A stretch of DNA of 20,112 nucleotides, taken from positions 1-20,112 of the IMG/VR virus record IMGVR_UViG_3300021376_000462. The stretch is one strand, 5' to 3'. The DNA comes from a virus. Shown piece after piece: positions 2,078 to 14,286 of this stretch. A program made the translations under genes and the position numbers. The notes under the pieces are model-generated. The model was not told the DNA's origin. It made no database searches and saw only the letters and a program-made list of their open reading frames with translations. Every line of letters starts with the position of its first letter. Position 1 is the stretch's first letter.

Positions 2078-2105
2078 TTGGATAATTGTTTTAAAGTTAT
2101 ATTTG
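2078..2105 (+). promoter_or_regulatory. Bacteroidota-type promoter for the XRE regulator gene
   Basis: TTG at 2078-2080 is followed after 17 bases by TATATTTG at 2098-2105, matching the TTG / TAnnTTTG pattern of Bacteroidota sigma factor promoters. It lies in the 66-base gap after the PAPS-reductase-like gene. The transcript would have a short A-rich leader before the ATG at 2124. The downstream bases (AAAC, then AGC) weakly resemble the repeated element seen before three structural genes. Confidence 0.55.
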
Positions 2106-2123
2106 TGGAAACAAAAGCAAAAA

Positions 2124-2327
2124 ATGAGTTTAGAGGAAGGTTTACTAATTAGAAAAGCAAGAAAGGCTAGCGGTTATACTCAGCTAGAATTGTGCGATAA
2201 ATTAGAAATGAGTCACGCGCCAATTAATCAAGTAGAAAATGGTTGGGAGTCTATTTCTTTACATAACTTGCGTAAAATATGCGATGCAATAGGATTAGAG
2301 GTTATTATTAGGCATAAAAATGGCTAA
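2124..2327 (+). CDS. XRE-family helix-turn-helix transcriptional regulator
   Basis: This is a 67-residue single-domain HTH protein. RKARKASGYTQLELCDKLEM, SHAPINQVENG and SLHNLRKICDAIGLEV are the five-helix Cro/cI-like (HTH_3) pattern, which binds operator DNA as a dimer. There is no C-terminal dimerisation or protease domain, so it is Cro-sized and not a full cI repressor. I chose ATG 2124 over the in-frame TTG at 2103 because that TTG lies inside the predicted -7 box (2098-2105). It has its own promoter just before the packaging module, so it may regulate the switch between modules. That regulatory role is inference. It overlaps the next gene by 8 bases. Confidence 0.8.
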   Translation: MSLEEGLLIRKARKASGYTQLELCDKLEMSHAPINQVENGWESISLHNLRKICDAIGLEVIIRHKNG

Positions 2328-4404: not shown

Positions 4405-4428
4405 TATATTTGTTAAAACGAATATGCT
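4405..4428 (+). promoter_or_regulatory. Repeated promoter-leader element, copy 1 (portal)
   Basis: TATATTTG (4405-4412) is followed by TTAAAACGAATATGCT, ending at the portal ATG at 4429. It matches the copies at 7694 and 13846 at nearly every position. The TTTTG at 4385-4389 leaves only a 15-base spacer, so the -33 contact is poor in this copy. It probably starts transcription of the portal/MuF genes with a very short leader. Confidence 0.6.
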
Positions 4429-5811
4429 ATGCTATTAAAGGCTCTCAGGGATTACATAACTCCAGCGGTTATTTCGACGCCTCAGAAACCAGATGTAAAC
4501 CTATTAAATCAGATTCTATACGGCCAATTTACGGCCTCTACGCTTGTTGTTTGGTACGACTCAAATCAGCAAACATTTATAGACAAAGGATACAAAGGCA
4601 ACGCCTTGGTTTATTCAATCATTCGTAAAATAGCAGAAAAGGGTAAGCAATGCCCAACTTTCGTTTACAAAGAGACAGAGGCAAGCAAGAGATATAGAGG
4701 AGCTAAATACACGACTAAGGAATTAAACCGCTTGCAATCAATCGCAATGCGTAAAAAGGAGTTGGTTGACGTTACCTATTCAGACCCAGTTAGTCAGTTG
4801 ATTAAGAATCCTAACCCGATGCAAACTTGGTCGGAATTCTTGGACAATATGCTAACGTGGTACAATACTAGCGGAGAAATATTTGTTTATGGATTTCAGC
4901 CTACTGAAGGCCTTAATAAAGGAAAAATAAAGGAAATGTATGTGATGCCTTCTAACTATGTGGAAATAGTTGCTGGCAACCTATTCGAGCCGGTTTGTGG
5001 CTATAAATTGATTATTGGAGACCAAAATATTGAGATTCCAGCGAGTCAAGTTTTGCATATTAAAAACACAAACCTTACTTGGGATTTAAACGGTGCGCAA
5101 CTTCGTGGAATGCCTCCGCTTTTAGCTGGATTAAAGACTTTGCAAGCTAACAACGAAGCAACTGAAGCCAAGCAAAAGACTTTCCAAAATGGAGGTGCAA
5201 AAGGCATTATTTCGCCTAACATTACAAATCCTGAGTTTTGGCCGTCTCCAGAGCAAAGAGCTAAGATGGACGAAAGAATAGACGAAAGAATTAATGGAAA
5301 TAAAAACATTAATAAAATTGTAGCGTCTTCTATTCCATTGCGATATGATTCGATCGGATTGAGTCCGGTTGCAATGGATATTATTAATTCTCAAAATATG
5401 GACTTGCAAACGCTTTGCGGATTGTGGGGTGTTAACCCAGTTTTGTTTAGTTCAAACGCTACCTATGCGAATTTGGAAGGAGCGCAAAAGGCTTTGGTTA
5501 CTGACGTGATTATGCCGCAACTTCAGATGATTGAGGAGAAGTTTACTCAATGGCTTTGCAAGTCATATGGAATGGATTACGTCATTGATTTTGATATTTC
5601 TTCTTTCTCCGAACTTCAGCCAGATGTAAAGGTTATTTTAGAAACGTATGGTAAATCACCGTACTTTACCGGTAATGAAGTTAGAAGTTTATTGAACTGG
5701 CACGCTAGCGAAGACCCAGCAATGGATATTCATTGGATTCCAAATAATGTAATTCCAAGCGACGAAGCTTTAGGAAATGCAGCAACGGATTTTACCGATT
5801 TCCAAGCTTAA
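4429..5811 (+). CDS. Portal protein (HK97 family)
   Basis: The 460-residue protein has the HK97/lambda-type portal layout. An early GNALVYSIIRKIAEKGKQCP segment (residues 57-76) is followed by the wing region with SGEIFVYG and the VLHIKN strand. Next comes the GMPPLLAGLKTLQANNEATE helix leading into the channel, with FQNGGAKGIISP, and then the stem/crown helices with FSSNATYANLEGAQKALVTD. As a dodecamer at one head vertex it forms the DNA entry channel and docks terminase, then neck proteins. Length is close to the family norm. ATG 4429 follows the conserved leader element. An overlapping frame starting at 4410 is a shadow. Confidence 0.93.
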   Translation: MLLKALRDYITPAVISTPQKPDVNLLNQILYGQFTASTLVVWYDSNQQTFIDKGYKGNALVYSIIRKIAEKGKQCPTFVYKETEASKRYRGAKYTTKELNRLQSIAMRKKELVDVTYSDPVSQLIKNPNPMQTWSEFLDNMLTWYNTSGEIFVYGFQPTEGLNKGKIKEMYVMPSNYVEIVAGNLFEPVCGYKLIIGDQNIEIPASQVLHIKNTNLTWDLNGAQLRGMPPLLAGLKTLQANNEATEAKQKTFQNGGAKGIISPNITNPEFWPSPEQRAKMDERIDERINGNKNINKIVASSIPLRYDSIGLSPVAMDIINSQNMDLQTLCGLWGVNPVLFSSNATYANLEGAQKALVTDVIMPQLQMIEEKFTQWLCKSYGMDYVIDFDISSFSELQPDVKVILETYGKSPYFTGNEVRSLLNWHASEDPAMDIHWIPNNVIPSDEALGNAATDFTDFQA

Positions 5812-5814
5812 AAA

Positions 5815-7440
5815 ATGAGGCTTATTAATTACTCCAAGGTTAGAAGGTCGGCGCAAGCTGATTTAAAGAGATACGAACGCCTTGGGGTAAAGATTTTTTT
5901 TGAGGCTCTAAAGCTTCAGTCTAAGCCAAATCCTTCGCCTATACCGATGCAAAAGGCTTATATTAAATTTTATCAAGATGTATTTATAGATTCGGCAAAA
6001 AAGGAGTTTAACCGTATACGTCAAGACAACCGAGAAAAGGCTTACGTTCCGGATGAATTTTTTTTAAATACTTGGAAAGAGTGGATCAAAGATTGGGTTT
6101 TGCAAAACCTTAGCCAACTTATTTTTGATGTCAATACCAATACAGATAATAAGATTAAACAAATAATTGCAGAGGGTATTGAGGCTGGTTTAAATCCTTT
6201 TCAGATTGAAAGACTTTTACTTGAGCAAATACCAGACCCAAAGCGAGCAAGAGCAATAGCAAGAACTGAATCGACAAGAGCGTTTAACGAAGGCAAAAAG
6301 AAAAGCGCACAAGATTGGGCCAATCAAACCGGTACAAACCTTTGGAAAATATGGATACACGGCGGATCTAAAGAGCCGAGGTTTCAGCATATTCAAGCGC
6401 AAAACAAACCAATCCCAGCCAATTCCTTTTTCGAGTTTACTTCGCCTAAAATTGGGGTTGTTCAGATGGACAAACCAGGAGACATAAACGGTGGAGCGGC
6501 TCAGACGGTTAATTGTTCGTGCGTTGTGGTTTACGTTTCCGAGGCTTACGCAAGACGTAATTTCCGAGAATGGTTTACTGAAACACCTAGAAGGCCTTTA
6601 CAACCATCTCAAAATATAACTCCAACAATTGAAGTAGTAGAAGAATTTATACCAAATCAAGCAAAGTTTACAGATTTCAATCAATTTAAGGATCAATATC
6701 TTACTTTAGCAAAAGGTAATAAGAACATCCAGAATAATAGTATGGGTGAGCTTATAGATGGTAAATACGAAACTGTACAAAATGCATTTGCTGAAATACA
6801 AGGATTTAGAGGTTTACCAAAAGTTTTATCGGATCAGGAATTTTTAAGATTGTCAAAAGACCCTAATTATACTTTAATTTATAGAGGGATTTCAGATGTA
6901 CCTAGTCAAAATCTAAAAGCAGATAAATTAATTGACAAATACATTAAAGGGGATTTGTACGGAGCAAGAGATAACACTTACGGAAACGGTACATATTGGG
7001 CCAGTAAAGATCAGTATGCTATAGCTAATGGATATGCTATAGGAATTGATAAAAATGTTTTACCAGCCCTTATAAATAAATCTGAAATGAAGGTTGGCGA
7101 TTTCTCTATATTAGAGCAACAATGGGTTAAGGAAACTAAAAAATACAAAGAAGAGGTAATAAAAAAGTGGGAGCAAAAATTTAACTTTAGGGCTGCTTCA
7201 AACAATTTGTTTTCTAATGATTTTAGAAAAAATAACCCAGAGGCATTTGCAGAATTTATTACTGAGTTAAAAGCTTTTGCTGAATTTGGAGGTTGGGCAA
7301 CTTCTAAAGGATATGACGCATACACAATTAAAGGGCCAAGCCCTAATTTTAATCAATTTGGATTTGATCAAGTAGATTTTGTTGTTACTCTAAATAGAAC
7401 AAAAACAATTGTACCAAAAACTTTAAGAGGTAAGTTATGA
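5815..7440 (+). CDS. Mu-F/SPP1 gp7-type head morphogenesis protein with C-terminal ADP-ribosyltransferase-like domain
   Basis: The 541-residue protein is nearly twice the size of a plain Mu-F minor head protein. Residues 1-245 are the Mu-F part: a helical N-terminus, the RARAIARTESTRAFNEGKK motif (144-162), then a small region with HGGSKEPR and the closing NCSC pair (C234, C236). A proline-rich linker (255-282) follows. Residues about 285-541 look like an ADP-ribosyltransferase: LIYRGIS (R357), GNGTYWAS (390-397), a YAIANGYA helix, then GYDAYTIKG and VDFVVTLNRTKTIV near the end. The usual catalytic Glu is not obvious; D521 is in about the right place. The MuF part helps head assembly. The second domain may be packaged and ejected, like phage T4 Alt. 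It overlaps the next gene (ATGA). Confidence 0.85.
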   Translation: MRLINYSKVRRSAQADLKRYERLGVKIFFEALKLQSKPNPSPIPMQKAYIKFYQDVFIDSAKKEFNRIRQDNREKAYVPDEFFLNTWKEWIKDWVLQNLSQLIFDVNTNTDNKIKQIIAEGIEAGLNPFQIERLLLEQIPDPKRARAIARTESTRAFNEGKKKSAQDWANQTGTNLWKIWIHGGSKEPRFQHIQAQNKPIPANSFFEFTSPKIGVVQMDKPGDINGGAAQTVNCSCVVVYVSEAYARRNFREWFTETPRRPLQPSQNITPTIEVVEEFIPNQAKFTDFNQFKDQYLTLAKGNKNIQNNSMGELIDGKYETVQNAFAEIQGFRGLPKVLSDQEFLRLSKDPNYTLIYRGISDVPSQNLKADKLIDKYIKGDLYGARDNTYGNGTYWASKDQYAIANGYAIGIDKNVLPALINKSEMKVGDFSILEQQWVKETKKYKEEVIKKWEQKFNFRAASNNLFSNDFRKNNPEAFAEFITELKAFAEFGGWATSKGYDAYTIKGPSPNFNQFGFDQVDFVVTLNRTKTIVPKTLRGKL

Positions 7441-7649
7441 TAGGTAAAATATTAGAATTTCGAGAAACGGAAAAAGAGATAACTAGAAAAATAGCTAAAT
7501 ATTTAGGGTATTTAGATGAGTTACACAATGGGAAAATTCCAGAAAGTAAATCTCAATTGGTATTTGATTTCTATAAATATTCATTAAGTCATATAATCAC
7601 AAATTTAGATGACATTCCAAAAAAGTACCGAGAAATATTTGCTGACTGA
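7437..7649 (+). CDS. Small helical protein, possible partner of the ADP-ribosyltransferase-like domain
   Basis: The 70-residue protein starts in the stop of the MuF/ART gene (ATGA). It is charged and predicted all-helical: helix 1 covers EFRETEKEITRKIAKYLGYL and helix 2 covers SQLVFDFYKYSLSHIITNL. There is no signal peptide, membrane segment or cysteine. It has the same AT-rich character as the ART-like 3' half of the preceding gene, unlike the MuF part. I do not recognise it. Its coupling to the ART-like domain raises the possibility of an inhibitor or chaperone for that activity, but no direct evidence supports this. About 70 bases without a gene follow, ending in the protease promoter. Confidence 0.6.
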   Translation: MIGKILEFRETEKEITRKIAKYLGYLDELHNGKIPESKSQLVFDFYKYSLSHIITNLDDIPKKYREIFAD

Positions 7650-7693
7650 TTTTTGGCATTTATCGCCTTTTGTTTCCTAATTTTTTTTATTTG

Positions 7694-7719
7694 TATATTT
7701 GCTTAAACGAATAAGCTAA
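7694..7719 (+). promoter_or_regulatory. Repeated promoter-leader element, copy 2 (prohead protease)
   Basis: TATATTTG (7694-7701) is followed by CTTAAACGAATAAGCTAA, leading straight into the protease ATG at 7720. It is almost identical to the copies at 4405 and 13846, with two extra bases before the start. The best upstream TTTG (7669-7672) is 21 bases away. It would drive the protease and major capsid genes up to the terminator at 10032. Confidence 0.6.
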
Positions 7720-8748
7720 ATGGCTGACGAAAACGAAAAGAGTTTTACAGATTATCCAGAGGCGGTAAAGAACAACGCTAGACGTGTTTTAGATTACGTT
7801 GAGGAGAATGGATGGGGACCGTGCGGAACGCCAGTAGGCAAGCAACGAGCCAACCAGCTCGCAAGCGGTTTTCCGATTTCGTTGGACGTTTTAAAAAGAA
7901 TGTATTCTTATTTAAGCCGTCACGAAGTAGATTTGGAAACCTCCACATCCTATTCAGATGGATGCGGTTTATTAATGTACGATGCTTGGGGCGGTAAAGC
8001 GGCTCTCGTTTGGAGTAAAAGAAAGCTTAGGGAATTAGGCGAAATAAAGGAAAACAAAACGACAATGATATTAAAAGGAATTAATCAAGGTTTTGCAGAT
8101 AGCGATATGAAGCAAGGAATCGTTTCTGGCTATTTTGCCGTTTTCGGTAACAAGGATTTGGACGGAGACGTAATTGAACCAGGAGCGTTTAGCAAGACAA
8201 TCCAAGAGCGTGGCCCAGCTGGAAAGCAGTTGATTAAGTACCTACTCGACCACGACAAGAATAAAGTTGTCGCAAAAATTACAAACCTTTACGAAGACCA
8301 GAAAGGTTTGAGATACGAGGCTAAGATTGGTAGCCACGCAGCCGGTCAAGACTTTCAGAAAATGATTGAGAGTGAATTGATTAACCAACATTCTTTTGGA
8401 TTCCGTACAATAAAGGAAATGTACGACGACCAAGCCAAGGCGAATTTGATTAAGGAGGTAATGATGTACGAAGGTTCAGCGGTTCAATTCTTGGGTGCTA
8501 ATCCTGAGACTACATTTATCGACCTTAAAAGCGAGGCGGATGCCTTTGAATATTTGAGCAGACTAGAAAAGTTTGTAAAGACTTCAGATGCAACCGACGA
8601 AACACTTGAGAAATTAGAAAATCAACTTAAATCACTTATGGATTTATTAAAGCCAGCCGAAGCTACTTTAGTAGAGAAACAAGCCGTGGAAGTTGAGACA
8701 CTAACTATAAACCAACTAAAAAAAGAACTTGAAAAATGGAAAATTTAA
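7720..8748 (+). CDS. Prohead protease (HK97/U35 family) with extra N-terminal domain
   Basis: The 342-residue protein has two parts. Residues about 12-108 form a separate domain (VKNNARRVLDYVEENGWG, GTPVGKQRANQLASG, KRMYSYLSRHEVD, GCGLLMYDAWGGKAALVW), a module seen near head-maturation genes in Bacteroidota phages. Residues about 115-270 are the HK97-type serine protease: SGYFAVFGNKDLDGDVIEPG, LLDHD (H178), NQHSFGFR (S225) and MMYEGSAV (E251), the likely His-Ser-Glu triad. The C-terminus is helical and charged. The protease cleaves scaffold/delta regions of the capsid protein during head maturation. It overlaps the capsid gene by 13 bases. The N-terminal domain has no assigned role. Confidence 0.88.
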   Translation: MADENEKSFTDYPEAVKNNARRVLDYVEENGWGPCGTPVGKQRANQLASGFPISLDVLKRMYSYLSRHEVDLETSTSYSDGCGLLMYDAWGGKAALVWSKRKLRELGEIKENKTTMILKGINQGFADSDMKQGIVSGYFAVFGNKDLDGDVIEPGAFSKTIQERGPAGKQLIKYLLDHDKNKVVAKITNLYEDQKGLRYEAKIGSHAAGQDFQKMIESELINQHSFGFRTIKEMYDDQAKANLIKEVMMYEGSAVQFLGANPETTFIDLKSEADAFEYLSRLEKFVKTSDATDETLEKLENQLKSLMDLLKPAEATLVEKQAVEVETLTINQLKKELEKWKI

Positions 8749-10007
8749 CTATTGATGCCGTTAAGGCGGTAATCGCAGAGGCTGGCGAGGCTTTGAAAGC
8801 TAAAGCAGCAAATGCAGAAGTAAAAGCCAATGAGGCTTTTGAAAAGGCTGAAGCTTTGTTGAAATCTTTCGACAATGTAGTAAGCAAAGAAGAGGCTGCG
8901 GAAATGCAGAAGCAACTTGACAAATTGGATATTGCTTTGCAAAAGAGTGCAGTTGAAAAAGAGGTAAGCGCTGAAGATTTTAAAAGCGCTTTTATTAAGG
9001 CTTATGCGCCTGTACAAGCTGAAATCGAAAGACTAAAGAATGAGCCTAATTCTCGTTTGAAAGCTCCTTTGGTTTTTGAAATTAATGAGAAAGCAGTTGG
9101 AACCATTACTTTGGCCTCAACCATTGCTAACGCTAACTCTAGCTCTCAAGTAACTATTTCTGAGTTTACTGGTGTTGTTTCTCCAGTTAGACAAAGATTG
9201 CTTGTTTACCTTTCTAACGTATCTGTTGGCGCAATCGGGACTCAGTATGCCGTTTGGGTTGAAGAATACGACCAAGAAGGTACTCCAGTAATGATCGGTG
9301 AAGGTGTTGAGAAAACTCAAATTGACGTTCAATACAAAGAGCAAAGAGCTAAAGTTGAGAAAATTGGCGTTCATATGAAAGTTTCTATGGAAATGTTGGA
9401 AGATGCTGCTTACTTGGCTTCTTACATCCAATCCAATGGTGTTAAGCGTGTTGAAACTGTAATCGAAAACCAACTATTTACTGGTAACGGTTCTTCACCT
9501 CAACTTGCTGGTTTGCTTTCTAAGTCTACTGCTTTCACTGGAGCTTCTATGGCTGGCGGTGTTGAGTCTGCAACTAACTGGGATGTAATTCACGGAATCA
9601 TAGCACAAGTAAAAGCTGCTAATGGAACTGCTAACGGAGTATTCGTTGAGACTGGAGCTTATCACTTGATGCTTTCTGAGAAAGATGCTGAAAAGCAATA
9701 TATCCTACCAGCTGGCGTTACTTTCAACGCTAACGGCGGAATCAACGCTTGGGGAGTTCAAATCATCCCAACTAACGCTTTGACTGGAACTGCTGCCGAC
9801 TTTGTAGGTGGTGATCTTTCAGTTATTAACGTTCGTTTGCGTAGCGGATTGCAAGTTGCTATTGGAGAGTCTGGCGATGACTTTATTGACAACTTGAAAA
9901 CTGTTAGAATCGAGCAGCGTTTGGTACAATTCGTATCTGCTAACGATACTCCAGTTTTGGTTAAGGGAACTTTTGCAGCTGCAAAGGCTATTCTTGAGAC
10001 TACCTAA
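8736..10007 (+). CDS. Major capsid protein (HK97 fold)
   Basis: The 423-residue protein follows the protease, as expected. Residues 1 to about 108 are an Ala/Lys/Glu-rich helix with coiled-coil character (KAVIAEAGEALKAKAANAEV and on), the scaffolding delta domain normally cut off by the protease. The rest is the HK97 core: VSPVRQRLLVYLSNVSVG, the E-loop/P-domain region (VEEYDQEGTPVMIGEG, VHMKVSMEMLEDAAYLASYI), NQLFTGNGSSPQLAGLLS, and the A-domain with GVQIIPTNALT near the end. It forms the icosahedral shell. Codon use and GC look higher than in the flanking small genes, as expected for a very highly expressed gene. A strong terminator follows. Confidence 0.93.
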   Translation: MENLTIDAVKAVIAEAGEALKAKAANAEVKANEAFEKAEALLKSFDNVVSKEEAAEMQKQLDKLDIALQKSAVEKEVSAEDFKSAFIKAYAPVQAEIERLKNEPNSRLKAPLVFEINEKAVGTITLASTIANANSSSQVTISEFTGVVSPVRQRLLVYLSNVSVGAIGTQYAVWVEEYDQEGTPVMIGEGVEKTQIDVQYKEQRAKVEKIGVHMKVSMEMLEDAAYLASYIQSNGVKRVETVIENQLFTGNGSSPQLAGLLSKSTAFTGASMAGGVESATNWDVIHGIIAQVKAANGTANGVFVETGAYHLMLSEKDAEKQYILPAGVTFNANGGINAWGVQIIPTNALTGTAADFVGGDLSVINVRLRSGLQVAIGESGDDFIDNLKTVRIEQRLVQFVSANDTPVLVKGTFAAAKAILETT

Positions 10008-10031
10008 TTTCATAAGGTGTTTATTTTGGTT

Positions 10032-10061
10032 AAAAGGGGAAGCATTTTGCTTCCCTTTTTT
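10032..10061 (+). terminator. Rho-independent terminator after the major capsid gene
   Basis: GGGAAGCA (10037-10044) pairs perfectly with TGCTTCCC (10048-10055) around a TTT loop. It is flanked by AAAA before and TTTTTT after (10056-10061). It ends the protease/capsid unit, so downstream genes need readthrough, antitermination or a new promoter. Confidence 0.9.
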
Positions 10062-10123
10062 ATTACAAATACTTGAAAATCACTATAGAAAAAAATATTT
10101 ATTACATTTAAAGAAAAAAAACG

Positions 10124-10300
10124 ATGGCAGACTTTACATTATGCAAGCCGCAAAGATGTAAACTTAAAATTAGTTGCGAGCGATATTTAACTAAACCAGG
10201 AGAGGCGCAAGCATATTTTCAAAAAGAGCCTTGTAATCAAGAAGGGACTGAATGCCCAATGTATTTTAAAAAGAATTGTAAAACTTGCGGTGAAATATGA
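10124..10300 (+). CDS. Small cysteine-rich protein, 58 aa, seven Cys
   Basis: The ATG at 10124 opens a 58-codon frame whose TGA (10298-10300) overlaps the methyltransferase start (ATGA), which supports it as real. Cysteines are at 7, 12, 18, 37, 44, 52 and 55, giving C-x4-C-x5-C, then C-x6-C, then C-x7-C-x2-C. A pattern this dense suggests a Zn-binding or Fe-S mini-domain. No signal peptide is present, so disulfides are unlikely. Short proteins with CKP-x2-C and C-x5-C-x-R-Y motifs occur beside phage structural genes, but I know no defined function. It is the first gene of the cassette after the capsid terminator. Confidence 0.65.
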   Translation: MADFTLCKPQRCKLKISCERYLTKPGEAQAYFQKEPCNQEGTECPMYFKKNCKTCGEI

Positions 10301-10830
10301 CTTTAACAGAACAAGAATTTTTAGAAGCAGAAATAAAAGAGTTTAAACTCACTATGGCCAATTCTGATTTTGTGGCATTGGCTAAAGAAGTCGCAGAATA
10401 CTGCAAGAAATTTAATCCAGAAAGCGTTTTGGATTTTGGATGTGGAACTGGCGTTTATTCCGAAGTTTTAAGGCAAGAAGGTTTTAATATTGTTGGTCAG
10501 GATATATTTAAAAGTCATCGAGATTATTGCAAAGAAAATTATCCTTTGCTAAAGGTTTATCAAAAGCCAAAAGAAGCCGATTTAATGCTTTGGATTGAGG
10601 TTGCTGAACATATGAACGACCAACAGATTGCAAAGGCTTTAAATGCAGTAAAACCACGAATTATTTTATTTTCCTCAACACATAATAAAACAGATTTTGA
10701 TCAGGCCTGGGGACATATTAATATTAAAAGCGAAAAAGAATGGATTGATTTATTTAAAGGTTTAGGCTTTAAGTTAATAGAGAAACCAAAAACTCCAACT
10801 GTATGGGCGTTAACGTTCCAAAAAATCTAA
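10297..10830 (+). CDS. Class I SAM-dependent methyltransferase (Methyltransf_23-like)
   Basis: The 177-residue protein has SAM-binding motif I, VLDFGCGTG (44-52), a motif II acidic position in NIVGQDI (64-70), LMLWIEVAEHM (96-106), and a late WGHINIKSEKEWIDLFKGLGF stretch (138-158). This order matches small-molecule and sugar methyltransferases of the Methyltransf_11/23 type. There is no DPPY or PC motif of N6A/C5 DNA methyltransferases, so DNA methylation is unlikely. With two glycosyltransferase-like genes immediately downstream, a plausible role is methylating a sugar or a glycosylated phage or host component; this is inference. It overlaps genes on both sides (ATGA upstream, 28 bases downstream). 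Confidence 0.8.
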   Translation: MTLTEQEFLEAEIKEFKLTMANSDFVALAKEVAEYCKKFNPESVLDFGCGTGVYSEVLRQEGFNIVGQDIFKSHRDYCKENYPLLKVYQKPKEADLMLWIEVAEHMNDQQIAKALNAVKPRIILFSSTHNKTDFDQAWGHINIKSEKEWIDLFKGLGFKLIEKPKTPTVWALTFQKI

Positions 10831-11444
10831 TTTACTTCATTTACTACGGAGGAAAAATAACACATTACCATAAGCTTAATTTAAGCCTATTAAACAAATA
10901 TTGGAGCTTATTTGATGGTAAAAAGGTGGTAAAGGTTGCCATTGATGGAAGATTGTTCCTAGAGCCTTTAAAATCGCTTTTGCCAAAGGACTGCCAAATT
11001 GAGTTGGTTGAAAATAACCGCGTCTTAGGTGAGTCCGTGCATTTTATTGATTCAATTAAACGCGTGAACGATGGGATTACGTTTTATGCACATTGCAAGG
11101 GAGTATCTAGACCAATTTGGCGAGGCTTAGACCTTTGGATTGAGCATAGCTACAAAGGAAACTTGGAAAATATTCCAGACCTTTCTAATAAACTATTTTC
11201 AGGCGTTTGCGGTAAGCTTTTGCCTTGTCCTCCATACGTTCCGCAAAACTTCCATTATTCAGGCTCTTTTTATTGGTTTAATACAGAAAAAGTAAAGGTT
11301 AGATTGGGTAAATATGAAATGGATAGATATTTAACCGAGCGCTTCCCAGCTATAATTGCAAAGCCAAGTGAATGTTTTTTTGGATATCCTAGCTCAGAAA
11401 AGAATTTGAACTTTTACGACGAAAAAACGTGGACCAGACTTTAA
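10803..11444 (+). CDS. Glycosyltransferase-like protein
   Basis: The 213-residue protein begins with a strand-turn NLIYFIYYGGK and carries FYAHCKGVSRP (94-104). It also carries FHYSGSFYWFNTEKV (150-164) and ends with KPSECFFGYPSSE. HTKG-like and hFSGnFWW-like segments are recurrent in putative glycosyltransferases of polysaccharide loci and phages. No clear DxD pair is seen, so it could be an unusual GT or a GT partner. It starts within the methyltransferase gene (28-base overlap), because no other ATG lies nearby, and ends within the next GT gene (16-base overlap). The target may be a phage structural protein, DNA base or host glycan; the sequence does not decide. Confidence 0.6.
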   Translation: MGVNVPKNLIYFIYYGGKITHYHKLNLSLLNKYWSLFDGKKVVKVAIDGRLFLEPLKSLLPKDCQIELVENNRVLGESVHFIDSIKRVNDGITFYAHCKGVSRPIWRGLDLWIEHSYKGNLENIPDLSNKLFSGVCGKLLPCPPYVPQNFHYSGSFYWFNTEKVKVRLGKYEMDRYLTERFPAIIAKPSECFFGYPSSEKNLNFYDEKTWTRL

Positions 11445-11983
11445 AGATATTTTACTCGAATCCTTTTGACTTAAATAAAAATATAGGTAAAGCCTATAAT
11501 GAATATTTAATGAGTTTAAATGCTCAAGACGATGACTGGATAGTAATGCAAGATGGTGATATTTTGTATTTAACGTCCGATTGGGGAAAAAGAATTTACG
11601 ATGCTTTGGCTTTAGATGGAGATAAATTTGGATTGATTGGATGTTACACTAACAGATTAAGAGCAAAGCATCAACTCCATAAAAACGAGTTTAGTTACGA
11701 TCTAAACGTGCGGGACCATTACGAAATCGCAATGGCCTATCAAGGCGAAGGCATAAAAGAAATAAAGCAGTATGTTGCTGGATTTTTTATGGCTTTTCAG
11801 TATAAGACTTGGAAAAAAATTAAGTTCGTTGAAAATAGTTTGGCCTTTGATTCTTTGTTTTCTATGCGAGTTAAAGAGCTAGGTTTCAAGATTGGATTAA
11901 TTAGGTCGTTATATGTATTCCATGGCTACCGATTATGGTCTGATTTTGAGCCTTGGAATGATAAAAAACATTTGACAAAATAA
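11429..11983 (+). CDS. GT-A-type glycosyltransferase
   Basis: The 184-residue protein has a GT-A (GT2-like) pattern. An N-terminal strand LKIFYSNPFDLNKNIGKAYN (residues 5-24) binds the nucleotide-sugar. DDDWIVMQDGDILYL (34-48) has the DxD metal-binding motif at D42/D44. VAGFFMAFQYKTWKKI and FDSLFSMRVKELGFKIGLI follow, then FHGYRLW with a late His. It is short for a full GT2 enzyme. The start is GTG 11429; the in-frame ATG is about 25 residues in and would remove the nucleotide-binding strand. It is not a continuation of the previous frame, whose product already ends. Likely cytoplasmic; acceptor unknown. It is the last gene of the modification cassette. Confidence 0.72.
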   Translation: MDQTLKIFYSNPFDLNKNIGKAYNEYLMSLNAQDDDWIVMQDGDILYLTSDWGKRIYDALALDGDKFGLIGCYTNRLRAKHQLHKNEFSYDLNVRDHYEIAMAYQGEGIKEIKQYVAGFFMAFQYKTWKKIKFVENSLAFDSLFSMRVKELGFKIGLIRSLYVFHGYRLWSDFEPWNDKKHLTK

Positions 11984-11994
11984 ATAGTATCTTT

Positions 11995-12135
11995 ATGATA
12001 AAATTACTCGTGGACTTAGTCCCCTTTCAAAAAGGCGAAATAATATGCGTAGGGAAAACCTACAACACTTATTTGGTCAATAAGGGACTAGCCGTATGGA
12101 TCAAAGTTGAAAAACAAGACTTTAAAACAAAATGA
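11995..12135 (+). CDS. Small beta protein between capsid/cassette and connector genes, 46 aa
   Basis: The ATG at 11995 opens a 46-codon frame ending in TGA at 12133-12135, which overlaps the connector start (ATGA). The sequence pattern is strand, FQKGEIICVG, KTYNTYLVNKGLAVWIKVE. This fits small proteins in phage head-neck regions that carry a KGE-type turn followed by LV-x-KG-x-A, with an SH3-like or beta-barrel look. There is no catalytic motif. The overlap and position support it as part of the connector unit. A minor role in head completion is possible but unproved. Confidence 0.6.
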   Translation: MIKLLVDLVPFQKGEIICVGKTYNTYLVNKGLAVWIKVEKQDFKTK

Positions 12136-12593
12136 GCAAACCTTTAGACATTAGATATGCTTCGCAAGTAGCTACTGAGCCAATTACCTTAGCAGAGGCC
12201 AAGGCTTGGCTTCAAATAGATTATTCCGATTGGGATAGCTTAATTACAAATACCTTAATTCCAGACGCAAGGATTGAATCAGAGAAAGCTTCCGGTATGC
12301 TTTACGTTCAAAGAAATGTGGTTATCACGGATAATAAAAGAGCTGAGAGAATTTATCCTATTGGGCCTTGGGTAGCTGATGTAACAACAGACGAAACTGA
12401 GGTAACTAATTACACTTATACGGCTGGATTTAACAACTCTAATCCTTTGCCTCAAGATTTAAAAATAGCAATGCTTAAAAGAATTGCAACTGAATTTCTT
12501 TATAAGCAAAATATTATTAATGAGCAGGATTATTACGCTCAAAAGAATAGCATTACCGCTGAAACTAAGTATAGAGCTGATTATTTCGTATAA
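12132..12593 (+). CDS. Head-tail connector protein (phiE125 gp8 / gp6-like)
   Basis: The 153-residue protein starts with the family pattern PITLAEAKAWLQIDYSDWDS followed by LITNTLIPDARIESEKASG (helices 1-2, residues 17-56). It has a beta-rich middle (NVVITDNKRAERIYPIG) and ends in helices KIAMLKRIATEFLYKQ. This is the gp6-like/phiE125 gp8 adaptor layout, which docks under the portal as a ring to seal DNA and receive the next neck protein. It follows the 46-aa gene by ATGA overlap and precedes the head-closure gene by two bases, the canonical order. Confidence 0.82.
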   Translation: MSKPLDIRYASQVATEPITLAEAKAWLQIDYSDWDSLITNTLIPDARIESEKASGMLYVQRNVVITDNKRAERIYPIGPWVADVTTDETEVTNYTYTAGFNNSNPLPQDLKIAMLKRIATEFLYKQNIINEQDYYAQKNSITAETKYRADYFV

Positions 12594-12595
12594 AA

Positions 12596-12919
12596 ATGAA
12601 CTTTGGCCAATATAACGAGAAAATATCCTTTATGGGATTTTCAAATACTAGCGATGGAGCTGGAGGTATTTTATCTAGCGCAGTTTCTGTATTAACAACC
12701 TTTGCAAGGGTTAAACAAACTAGAGGATCGGATGCGATTGAATCTAACGACTTAACTTTGCCTAAAACTTATTCAGTTGGCATTCAATATAGAAACAACT
12801 TTACTCCTAACGAAAATTACCAAATCTTTTATAGGAGTAAGTATTACAAAATAACCTCAATCGTTTTAAATGAGGAAAGACAAAAAATGGAGTATTTAAT
12901 AACAATGGTTGGCATCTAA
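12596..12919 (+). CDS. Head closure / head-tail joining protein (SPP1 gp16-like)
   Basis: The 107-residue all-beta protein has the Phage_H_T_join order: EKISFMGF, SDGAGG, TFARVKQTRG, TYSVGIQYRN, then the closing YQIFYRSKYYKITSIVLNEE and a last strand. These proteins bind the connector ring and plug the head after packaging. Length is typical (100-120 aa). It comes directly after the connector gene and shares TAATG with the HK97 gp10-like gene downstream. Confidence 0.8.
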   Translation: MNFGQYNEKISFMGFSNTSDGAGGILSSAVSVLTTFARVKQTRGSDAIESNDLTLPKTYSVGIQYRNNFTPNENYQIFYRSKYYKITSIVLNEERQKMEYLITMVGI

Positions 12920-13383
12920 TGGCGGTAACTGTTAAAGGATTGGATAAGGCTTTAGCTGACCTAGATAAAAAAGGTGATAAAGTTATTGAGGCAGTAAAAG
13001 AAAAGCTTGCCGATGTAGCTACAGAGATTGAAATTAAAGCTATACAAAGAGCGCCAAGCCAATGGGAAGGATTGCCATTATCAATTAAGCAAAGAATTGA
13101 TAAAGTTGCTGAAAATAACGGTTTAAATTGGCGAGTAGGCGTTCAAAGCGGAAGTTCTGATTTTGAAATTGAGGCTTGGCTTGAATTTGGAACGGGACTA
13201 AGTGCAAGGGAAATATTAGGTCGACCTCAATATACTCCAGAAATAAGGGCAGTTGCTCAAAGATTTTATAGAAATGGTAAAGGGCGAATAATTGGACAAC
13301 CTTATTTATTCCCCTCTTATTTTGAAGCAACTAATAATTTAGTCCAGGAAATGGAAAAAGAAATAAACGACAATATCAAATGA
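12919..13383 (+). CDS. HK97 gp10-like neck/tail completion protein
   Basis: The 154-residue protein shows the HK97 gp10 pattern. The N-terminus has helices LDKALADLDKKGDKVIEAVK and VATEIEIKAIQRAP. The mid-part is basic. EAWLEFGTG (residues 85-93) follows, and the late IIGQPYLFPSYFEA supplies the GxPYLxPA-like segment. Members join the neck to the tail tube or complete the tail. The stop overlaps the next start (ATGA). It is slightly longer than average, with an insertion around residues 50-80. Confidence 0.85.
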   Translation: MAVTVKGLDKALADLDKKGDKVIEAVKEKLADVATEIEIKAIQRAPSQWEGLPLSIKQRIDKVAENNGLNWRVGVQSGSSDFEIEAWLEFGTGLSAREILGRPQYTPEIRAVAQRFYRNGKGRIIGQPYLFPSYFEATNNLVQEMEKEINDNIK

Positions 13384-13829
13384 GAGAAATAGCAACCGAT
13401 ATTCGAGTATCTGTTTTAAATGCAATCACGCCTTTGGTAGTTAGCGCGACTACAATTCCCGTTAGGGATACTTTTATGCCTCCAAGCGTTACAATTCCAG
13501 ACTTTCAAACTGGTAAAGCTTATGTTTTATTAACAGATCAAAACGAAGCAGAAACAACAAATAATGATTGCTCAATTAGGCAAAGCGTCAATTTCAATAT
13601 TAATATTATTACCAAATTTCCTGTAGGTAGCGGAGGTAAAAAGGCAAGCGAGTTAATTTCAAATGCAATTCAGTTAAAAATGACTGAGGATTACCTTATT
13701 TTACCTGGAGATTTGCAGCTAATTAATATCCGCAAAAGTTTTTCAAGGGTTCAAATAGAGCAAGGGACTACAGAAATTGCCTATCAAAAAATTCTTGGCT
13801 ATACCTTGGATATTTTTCAAGTATCTTGA
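13380..13829 (+). CDS. Tail completion/terminator protein (DUF3168/gpU-like position)
   Basis: The 149-residue protein sits between the gp10-like gene and the major tail protein, where tail terminator proteins are usually encoded. It has an N-terminal helix (REIATDIRVSVLNAITPLV), a central beta sheet (KAYVLLTDQNEAE, SVNFNINIITKF), a helix ASELISNAIQLKM and final strands ending YTLDIFQVS. This alpha-beta layout fits terminator proteins that cap the tail tube and bind the neck. Similarity is structural and positional; I see no signature motif, so the name is provisional. The stop overlaps the promoter -33 region of the next gene. Confidence 0.68.
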   Translation: MREIATDIRVSVLNAITPLVVSATTIPVRDTFMPPSVTIPDFQTGKAYVLLTDQNEAETTNNDCSIRQSVNFNINIITKFPVGSGGKKASELISNAIQLKMTEDYLILPGDLQLINIRKSFSRVQIEQGTTEIAYQKILGYTLDIFQVS

Positions 13830-13869
13830 TAAATAAAAATTTATGTATATTTGTTAAAACGAATAAGCT
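13826..13869 (+). promoter_or_regulatory. Repeated promoter-leader element, copy 3 (major tail protein)
   Basis: TTG (13826-13828), 17 bases, then TATATTTG (13846-13853) and TTAAAACGAATAAGCT, ending at the ATG at 13870. This is the best copy, with a well-spaced -33 TTG that overlaps the end of the upstream gene. It provides a separate start for the most highly needed tail protein and the tail genes after it. Confidence 0.7.
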
Positions 13870-14286
13870 ATGGCAACCTATCAACTTGGAAATTTCTTTA
13901 CATTCGAGTGGAACTCTCTTCCAGTCGTTTGCAAAACTTCCGCTTCTGTTTCTATTTCAAATGAGTCTGTAGTTGTACGAAATGACTGCACGGGTGATTA
14001 CGGAGTAAGACTTGAAGGCGGAGACAAATCTGGTTCATTCTCTTTTTCTGGAGACTTGGACTTTGCTTCAACTGGAGCTTCTAATCTTTCAGCATTTGAT
14101 TTGATGGAAGATATTGGTAAAGTATTTGAATTAATTTTCGGTGGAGTTGATCCAGGTGATAAAATTATTACCGTTGATGCTCAACTTAATTCAATCGAAA
14201 TTACTGCCGAGAGAAACTCACAAGTTTCTTTTACCGGTACTTTTGACTTTGCTGGCGCTCCTGCAATTACAGTAATACCAACCTAA
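13870..14286 (+). CDS. Major tail (tube) protein
   Basis: The 138-residue, beta-rich protein has the TP901-1-type tail tube pattern: KTSASVSISNESVVVRNDC near the N-terminus, GDKSGSFSFSGDLDF, and a mirrored end NSIEITAERNSQVSF then FTGTFDFAGA. Many copies stack into the tail tube. Size is normal. It has its own promoter-leader element and is followed by the chaperone genes and the tape measure gene, the standard order. The sequence is polar with low charge, as expected for a structural protein. Confidence 0.87.
   Translation: MATYQLGNFFTFEWNSLPVVCKTSASVSISNESVVVRNDCTGDYGVRLEGGDKSGSFSFSGDLDFASTGASNLSAFDLMEDIGKVFELIFGGVDPGDKIITVDAQLNSIEITAERNSQVSFTGTFDFAGAPAITVIPT

Follow-up and report, generated by a model that had tools for sequence, protein, structure and literature searches.

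A near-palindrome overlapping the -7 box and predicted start site of three probable late promoters in uncultured Bacteroidota phages, a putative operator

Introduction

Why should three genes for virion structure, lying in different parts of one phage genome, carry nearly the same short sequence immediately in front of their start codons? The DNA analyzed here (the window) is the whole IMG/VR record IMGVR_UViG_3300021376_000462 (20,112 bases), a tailed-phage fragment from an uncultured, freshwater-type Bacteroidota phage. A preliminary description placed copies of a shared element at 4405, 7694, and 13846, before the portal, protease, and major tail protein genes respectively, which we found to be correct. 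It suggested that the element might be a phage-specific regulator site or a leader that boosts translation. We examined the element in the window, in relatives of the phage, and in Bacteroidia genomes, and weighed five explanations for it.

Results

Three copies in the window

The late genes of the window run rightward in the order terminase, portal, MuF head protein, protease, major capsid, connectors, tail tube, and tape measure. The element, roughly 20 bases long, consists of TATATTTG-NNW-AAACGAATA, with the ATG 4-6 bases downstream, and the genes behind its three copies encode the portal, the prohead protease (S78), and the major tail protein. Allowing up to three mismatches, these copies constitute the only three-copy family of 24-mers in the window (none in 20 shuffled windows), and the exact pattern TATTYG-N6-CRAATA likewise occurs three times. 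The invariant core of the element is AAACRAATA, and the two bases following TTTG vary, which corrects the first description.

All features below lie on the plus strand. The portal copy reads TATATTTGTTAAAACGAATATGCT then ATG; its -7 box TATATTTG, invariant in relatives, occupies 4405..4412, and the portal protein gene (PF04860, 4e-47) 4429..5811. The protease copy, TATATTTGCTTAAACGAATAAGCTAA then ATG, has its -7 box at 7694..7701 and precedes the protease gene (7720..8748; PF04586, 4e-24), which forms one unit with the major capsid gene (8736-10007; PF05065, 1.5e-19). The copy before the major tail (tail tube) protein gene (13870..14286; phrog_1407, 4e-9, and PF06199) reads TATATTTGTTAAAACGAATAAGCT then ATG, with the -7 box at 13846..13853. 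Separate late transcription units would fit the positions of two terminator-like hairpins, a strong one of the intrinsic type 3' of the major capsid gene at 10032..10064 (MFE -18.4 kcal/mol, z -4.2), at the end of the protease-capsid unit, and a second at 2597-2634 before terS. Judging from the function of their genes, the three structural operons would be expressed late.

Other features of the gene content deserve mention. The MuF head protein (5815-7440) has 541 aa here and about 255 aa in several relatives; the additional half, at the C-terminus, has YRG and GNGTYWA motifs and resembles an effector domain of the ADP-ribosyltransferase type, for which Pfam and PHROGs gave no call, and the 70-aa gene that follows (7437-7649) could be the partner of this domain. 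Between the capsid and connector genes, a glycosyltransferase-like cassette (10803-11983) differs in gene content among relatives. One relative (G002:C1) carries similar, non-identical major capsid genes with their following cysteine-rich genes at both record ends, which may reflect duplication or a joined population assembly.

Phasing and predicted start sites

The box TATATTTG, present at all three sites and invariant within the group, matches the housekeeping-sigma consensus TAnnTTTG. Upstream of it, where a -33 TTTG-like element would be expected, each gene has a different AT-rich sequence. Variable -33 spacing had been taken to point to an activator or alternative sigma factor; we do not follow this, since the -33 element is weak in Flavobacterium (F. 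johnsoniae) anyway (PMC6847099) and the -7 box is of the normal housekeeping type.

Within the group, the block always begins three bases (NNW) after TTTG and its distance from the -7 box never changed, whereas the gap from block to ATG varies by gene and lineage. The fixed end before the ATG that had been proposed needs correction: phasing is to the -7 box, with no more than a loose relation to the start codon. In F. johnsoniae promoters, the box is numbered T-12...G-5 and transcription starts 4-5 bases on (PMC6847099). With this spacing, transcription is predicted to start at about 4417, 7706, and 13858, giving leaders of 12-14 nt (for the portal, the 12-nt AACGAATATGCT at 4417..4428, directly before the ATG at 4429). 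The block would then extend from about -2 to about +9 and straddle the start, instead of lying wholly downstream of it as first described.

These positions bear on an RNA-level explanation, in which the block forms the 5' end of late mRNAs (AACGAAUAAGCU..AUG) and serves initiation without a Shine-Dalgarno (SD) sequence, or protects or marks phage mRNA 5' ends. The block does span the whole predicted leader of 12-14 nt, and little structure is predicted for the 5' ends. Moreover, CRAATAAGC is still near the ATG in one distant relative (L495) despite an 8 bp change in its distance from the -7 box, and AAAC(G/A)A recurs, with the spacing shifted by one base, at the start of the lysis and some HTH and terS transcripts. 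On the other hand, the phasing within the group is to the -7 box and not to the ATG, and the invariance of T-10 and A-9 is left unexplained. The initiation context of F. johnsoniae is Kozak-like and favors A at -3 (PMC6847099); the portal, protease, and tail genes have G, T, and G there, and thus show neither this A nor phasing to the ATG. Further, the major capsid gene, which encodes the most abundant product, lacks the leader, and the leader was never seen without the promoter. Pairing of the leader with 16S rRNA was also considered and set aside: against one Bacteroidota 16S rRNA, the leader core gave only scattered, G-U-rich matches, none of them at the 3' end and none amounting to convincing complementarity. 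With its varying ATG spacing, missing A at -3, and leaderless capsid gene, the translation-boosting leader is the less supported of the options first proposed, and we regard an RNA-level signal as unlikely.

Conservation before the same three genes in relatives

Relatives were fetched by protein, so that the element played no part in selecting loci, and the counts refer to distinct upstream haplotypes at protein-anchored loci only (an earlier count included pattern-fetched loci). The element precedes the portal gene in 42/42 haplotypes and the tail gene in 55/55. Before the protease gene it is present in 58 of 62, 52 of them recognized by script and six by inspection, the latter being mis-called starts with the box just inside the gene; the four loci without it (L427, L428, L429, and L431) belong to an outgroup. 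It was found before none of the other genes tested in protein-anchored relatives (MuF, capsid, tape measure, and others). Sixteen of twenty long records carry three copies and four carry two, every copy on the late strand, and each of ten assembled long relatives (26-37 kb) contains exactly three exact dyads and no others (0.018 expected per shuffled genome). The scan for further copies thus returned them before the same three genes, and the preliminary view that a Bacteroidota -7 box with a conserved second half is shared, in a phage-specific manner, by three structural operons is borne out in relatives.

Similarity among the copies might simply mean that three promoter cassettes were duplicated recently and have lacked time to diverge. 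The portal and tail copies were indeed not seen in the distant lineages examined, where the protease copy alone remains (with proteases about 50-65% identical). However, pairwise difference in the portal block is 0.025 (2.5% of sites), as against 23-36% in the DNA just upstream, and the block stays constant among relatives with 8-36% per-site difference immediately upstream. Two bases inside the element also vary freely while the rest does not (29% pairwise difference for the two bases after TTTG at the portal). Recent duplication is thereby largely refuted, and we consider it barely credible.

The element is lacking in the cultured relatives Flavobacterium phage 11b and Cellulophaga phi18:1 (portal about 29% identical), and a short blastn search of the phage collection gave background matches only. 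In a contig labelled Acidimicrobiaceae (L239, CANGZK010000086.1, 5030-5133), the promoter and opening codons of the phage portal gene are fused to unrelated DNA; this contig is probably a chimeric assembly and was not accepted as an occurrence in Acidimicrobiaceae. In three relatives (G005, G009, and G010), the protease lacks about 115 N-terminal aa and the element stands immediately 5' of the truncated gene, as though promoter cassette and start codon stayed together.

A near-palindrome joining the two halves

The preliminary description took the conserved second half as an mRNA leader element and missed that the two halves form a near-palindrome. TATTTG (-10 to -5), part of the -7 box, is mirrored across a 6-base center by CRAATA (+3 to +8) within the supposed leader block, with 5/6 or 6/6 positions matching; CRAATA would be expected by chance within 0-12 bases of TATTTG in about 1-2% of cases. 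The dyad, a putative operator, reads TATTTG-TTAAAA-CGAATA at the portal (4407..4424; 42/42 protein-anchored haplotypes) and at the tail gene (13848..13865; 55/55 haplotypes), and TATTTG-CTTAAA-CGAATA at the protease (7696..7713), the copy that the most distant relatives keep.

Distant protease promoters keep both half-sites around different centers, namely CTTAAG (L458), TTTAAC (L460), and CTTATA (L461, L466, and L519). In L460, L464, and L466, T-12 has become C (CATATTTG), while T-10, A-9, and the half-sites are kept; T-10 and A-9 are barely specified by sigma, unlike T-12 (PMC6847099). In addition, one clade shows the same G to A change, which completes the palindrome, at the portal, at the tail gene, and in some members at the protease, where other members retain G. 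Retention of the half-sites despite changes of the center and T-12, together with the parallel G to A change, favors a two-fold symmetric DNA site rather than a promoter alone. The spacing of the half-sites is fixed at six bases within the group and in L456-L466. In L495, it is 14, owing to an 8-bp insertion between them (TATATTTGGTAAACCGTTTAAGCAAATAAGCTATTATG) with CAAATAAGC kept, and this, along with the lysis promoter that has AAACGA without a dyad (see below), disfavors a rigid dyad. The dyad also offers no reason for the good conservation of AAGC past the right half-site. An overlapping divergent promoter was rejected on reading the sequence, as the opposite strand has no T-12/A-11 pair of a -7 box.

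Related promoters without the dyad, and host genomes

The lysis promoter of the same phages (G001-G007, G009, and G010), about 8-11 kb after the tail gene and conserved in nearly all haplotypes, precedes an operon of holin-like genes and an endolysin. It reads TATTTTTG-RT-AAACGAA, with AAACGA conserved, spacing one base shorter, and no dyad. AAACRA also occurs in some HTH and terS promoters, and a promoter of the same layout, TATATTTG-TGGAAACAAAAGCAAAAA-ATG, lies in the window at 2098..2123 (plus strand) before a small XRE-type HTH gene (dyad in 0/24 haplotypes). It may be that AAACGA at the start point has a function of its own, apart from the dyad.

The block could be an intrinsic promoter element that needs no regulator, aids start-site selection, open-complex formation, or escape of the host RNA polymerase, and is retained because strong promoters are required here. 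Its position across the predicted start, its rigid spacing from the -7 box, and AAACRA at other promoters of the same phages all agree with this. In contrast, 59 host promoter-like sites (400 kb of two Bacteroidia genomes) share no consensus beyond the -7 box, and the element is missing from the Bacteroidia genomes sampled: TATATTTGNNWAAACGAATA was found in 2/295 of them, a chance-like frequency, and the dyad in 1/60, compared to 1/60 for a spacer-shifted control. Neither a sequence-specific need as far as +9 nor the same base change at three promoters of one clade would be expected of such an element, and we hold it to be about as unlikely as an RNA-level signal. As the site is not enriched in the sampled Bacteroidia genomes, a host-encoded regulon hijacked by the phage was also rejected. 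Across the genomes sampled, the comparison excludes a general Bacteroidota signal; one specific to the phage's own host may exist.

Candidate regulators

The XRE-type HTH protein (67 aa from ATG; 2124-2327, plus strand; PF01381) was down-weighted as regulator, because it was not found in G001, G003, and G004, which keep the three elements. Two kinds of early region were seen: the kind with the XRE HTH gene lies on the late strand, the kind without it on the opposite strand, and both keep the three elements (G001, G003, and G004 versus G002 and G005-G010).

A small tandem-HTH protein of 110-148 aa, encoded in the early region, is a better candidate. BLAST found it in 7/10 assembled relatives; in the other three (G001, G003, and G004), a longer HTH protein corresponds to it in a profile comparison based on few sequences (92% probability), and a profile search added more long records as well as four distant carriers (L456, L457, L464, and L465). 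Examples of its gene are G006:C1:19566-19895 and L368:2101-2430. The same search did not find it in G012 or in short fragments, and it is absent from the INPHARED collection, whose records examined here all lack the element. Its gene region is not included in the window fragment. The predicted structure has two three-helix units (pLDDT 84), and a PDB fold search with this model returned only weak bipartite HTH matches (best, Tc3 transposase, E 0.13). The tandem-HTH protein is therefore our best candidate regulator, put forward from co-occurrence alone. The failure to find it in G012 and the few-sequence profile comparison behind the three type-B records weaken the link, and co-occurrence within one phage family may reflect mere shared ancestry.

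The protein also shows weak Sigma70 region-4-like matches, which would suit a different mechanism, in which an early phage protein rides on the host RNA polymerase and reads the start-region block in an activator-like or sigma-like manner, rendering the late promoters selective. The phasing to the -7 box, the phage specificity, and AAACGA common to structural and lysis promoters at a spacing one base different are in line with this. However, contacts made by activators or by region 4 are normally upstream, the -7 box already matches the full consensus, and the dyad would be accidental, which makes a phage-modified polymerase very improbable.

Discussion

In the explanation we prefer, all three copies are late promoters of the Bacteroidota housekeeping type (-7 box TATATTTG), and a phage DNA-binding protein has an operator that overlaps them, part of the -7 box forming one half-site. 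The start region would be an 18-bp operator, TATTTG-NNWANN-CRAATA, whose right half-site lies at about +3 to +8. A protein made or modified in infection would bind the DNA at both half-sites, cover the -7 box and the start point, and set the timing or level of the three structural operons jointly; in the simplest form, the operons would be held shut until late. We infer the binding of a protein, its identity, and repression by its binding.

Several observations favor this reading: the restriction of the element to exactly three copies in each long genome, every one in front of a structural gene; the rigid -7 box phasing, the invariant T-10 and A-9, and the half-sites kept while T-12 and the center change; the low divergence of the block relative to upstream DNA, the low chance expectation for the dyad, and the parallel G to A change in one clade; and the absence of the element from host genomes as a promoter feature, together with the tandem-HTH protein in most long carrier records and in distant carriers. 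It is weakened by the portal and tail copies missing from the distant lineages examined, and we set its likelihood just short of an even chance because AAACGA possibly carries its own function, as the lysis, HTH, and terS promoters suggest. Of the options raised at the outset, a phage-specific regulator site is thus the one that now leads. In its most specific form, sigma and the small tandem-HTH phage protein would be competitors for shared bases in the three virion-structure promoters, and an operator half built from the host -7 box would give uncultured Bacteroidota phages one shared late switch; we offer this more tentatively, as somewhat unlikely in all its parts.

A compact, conserved, three-copy element provides a handle on these phages, with a candidate regulator, defined putative binding sites, and positions predicted for the 5' ends. 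For work in Bacteroidota, where tools based on the SD sequence fail, it could also yield a promoter that is strong or can be switched.

No description of such an element, or of late-gene control for such phages, was found in the open literature searched, and comparison is therefore with better-known systems. In T7-type phage promoters, conserved bases extend into the transcript. The element resembles these in being conserved from 5' of the start as far as about +6 to +9, in its several copies per genome, and in the structural genes downstream, but it contains the host sigma box, and we noticed no gene for a phage RNA polymerase in the gene lists read. Its A-rich, SD-less leader is like that of the Bacteroidota Kozak-like context (A at -3; PMC6847099), from which it differs by G, T, and G at -3. 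With Bacteroidota sigma-ABfr promoters (-33 TTTG / -7 TAnnTTTG), it shares the perfect box, the AT-rich upstream sequence, and the short SD-less leader (PMC6847099, PMC9723704). Whereas the hosts have no conserved sequence after the box, the phage has AAACRAATA at a fixed distance, in addition to the invariant T-10/A-9. Operators of the lambda type overlap the -10 region or the start site of lytic or late phage promoters. At P3 of GIL01, LexA-gp7 represses by binding boxes inside the promoter (PMC6182141). No signs of lysogeny were seen in the gene lists read for the present phages. The inverted repeat described here likewise lies inside a late-gene promoter and covers the sigma contact; unlike in those systems, one of its half-sites is the -7 box itself, one site serves three separate operons, and the regulator is a candidate only.
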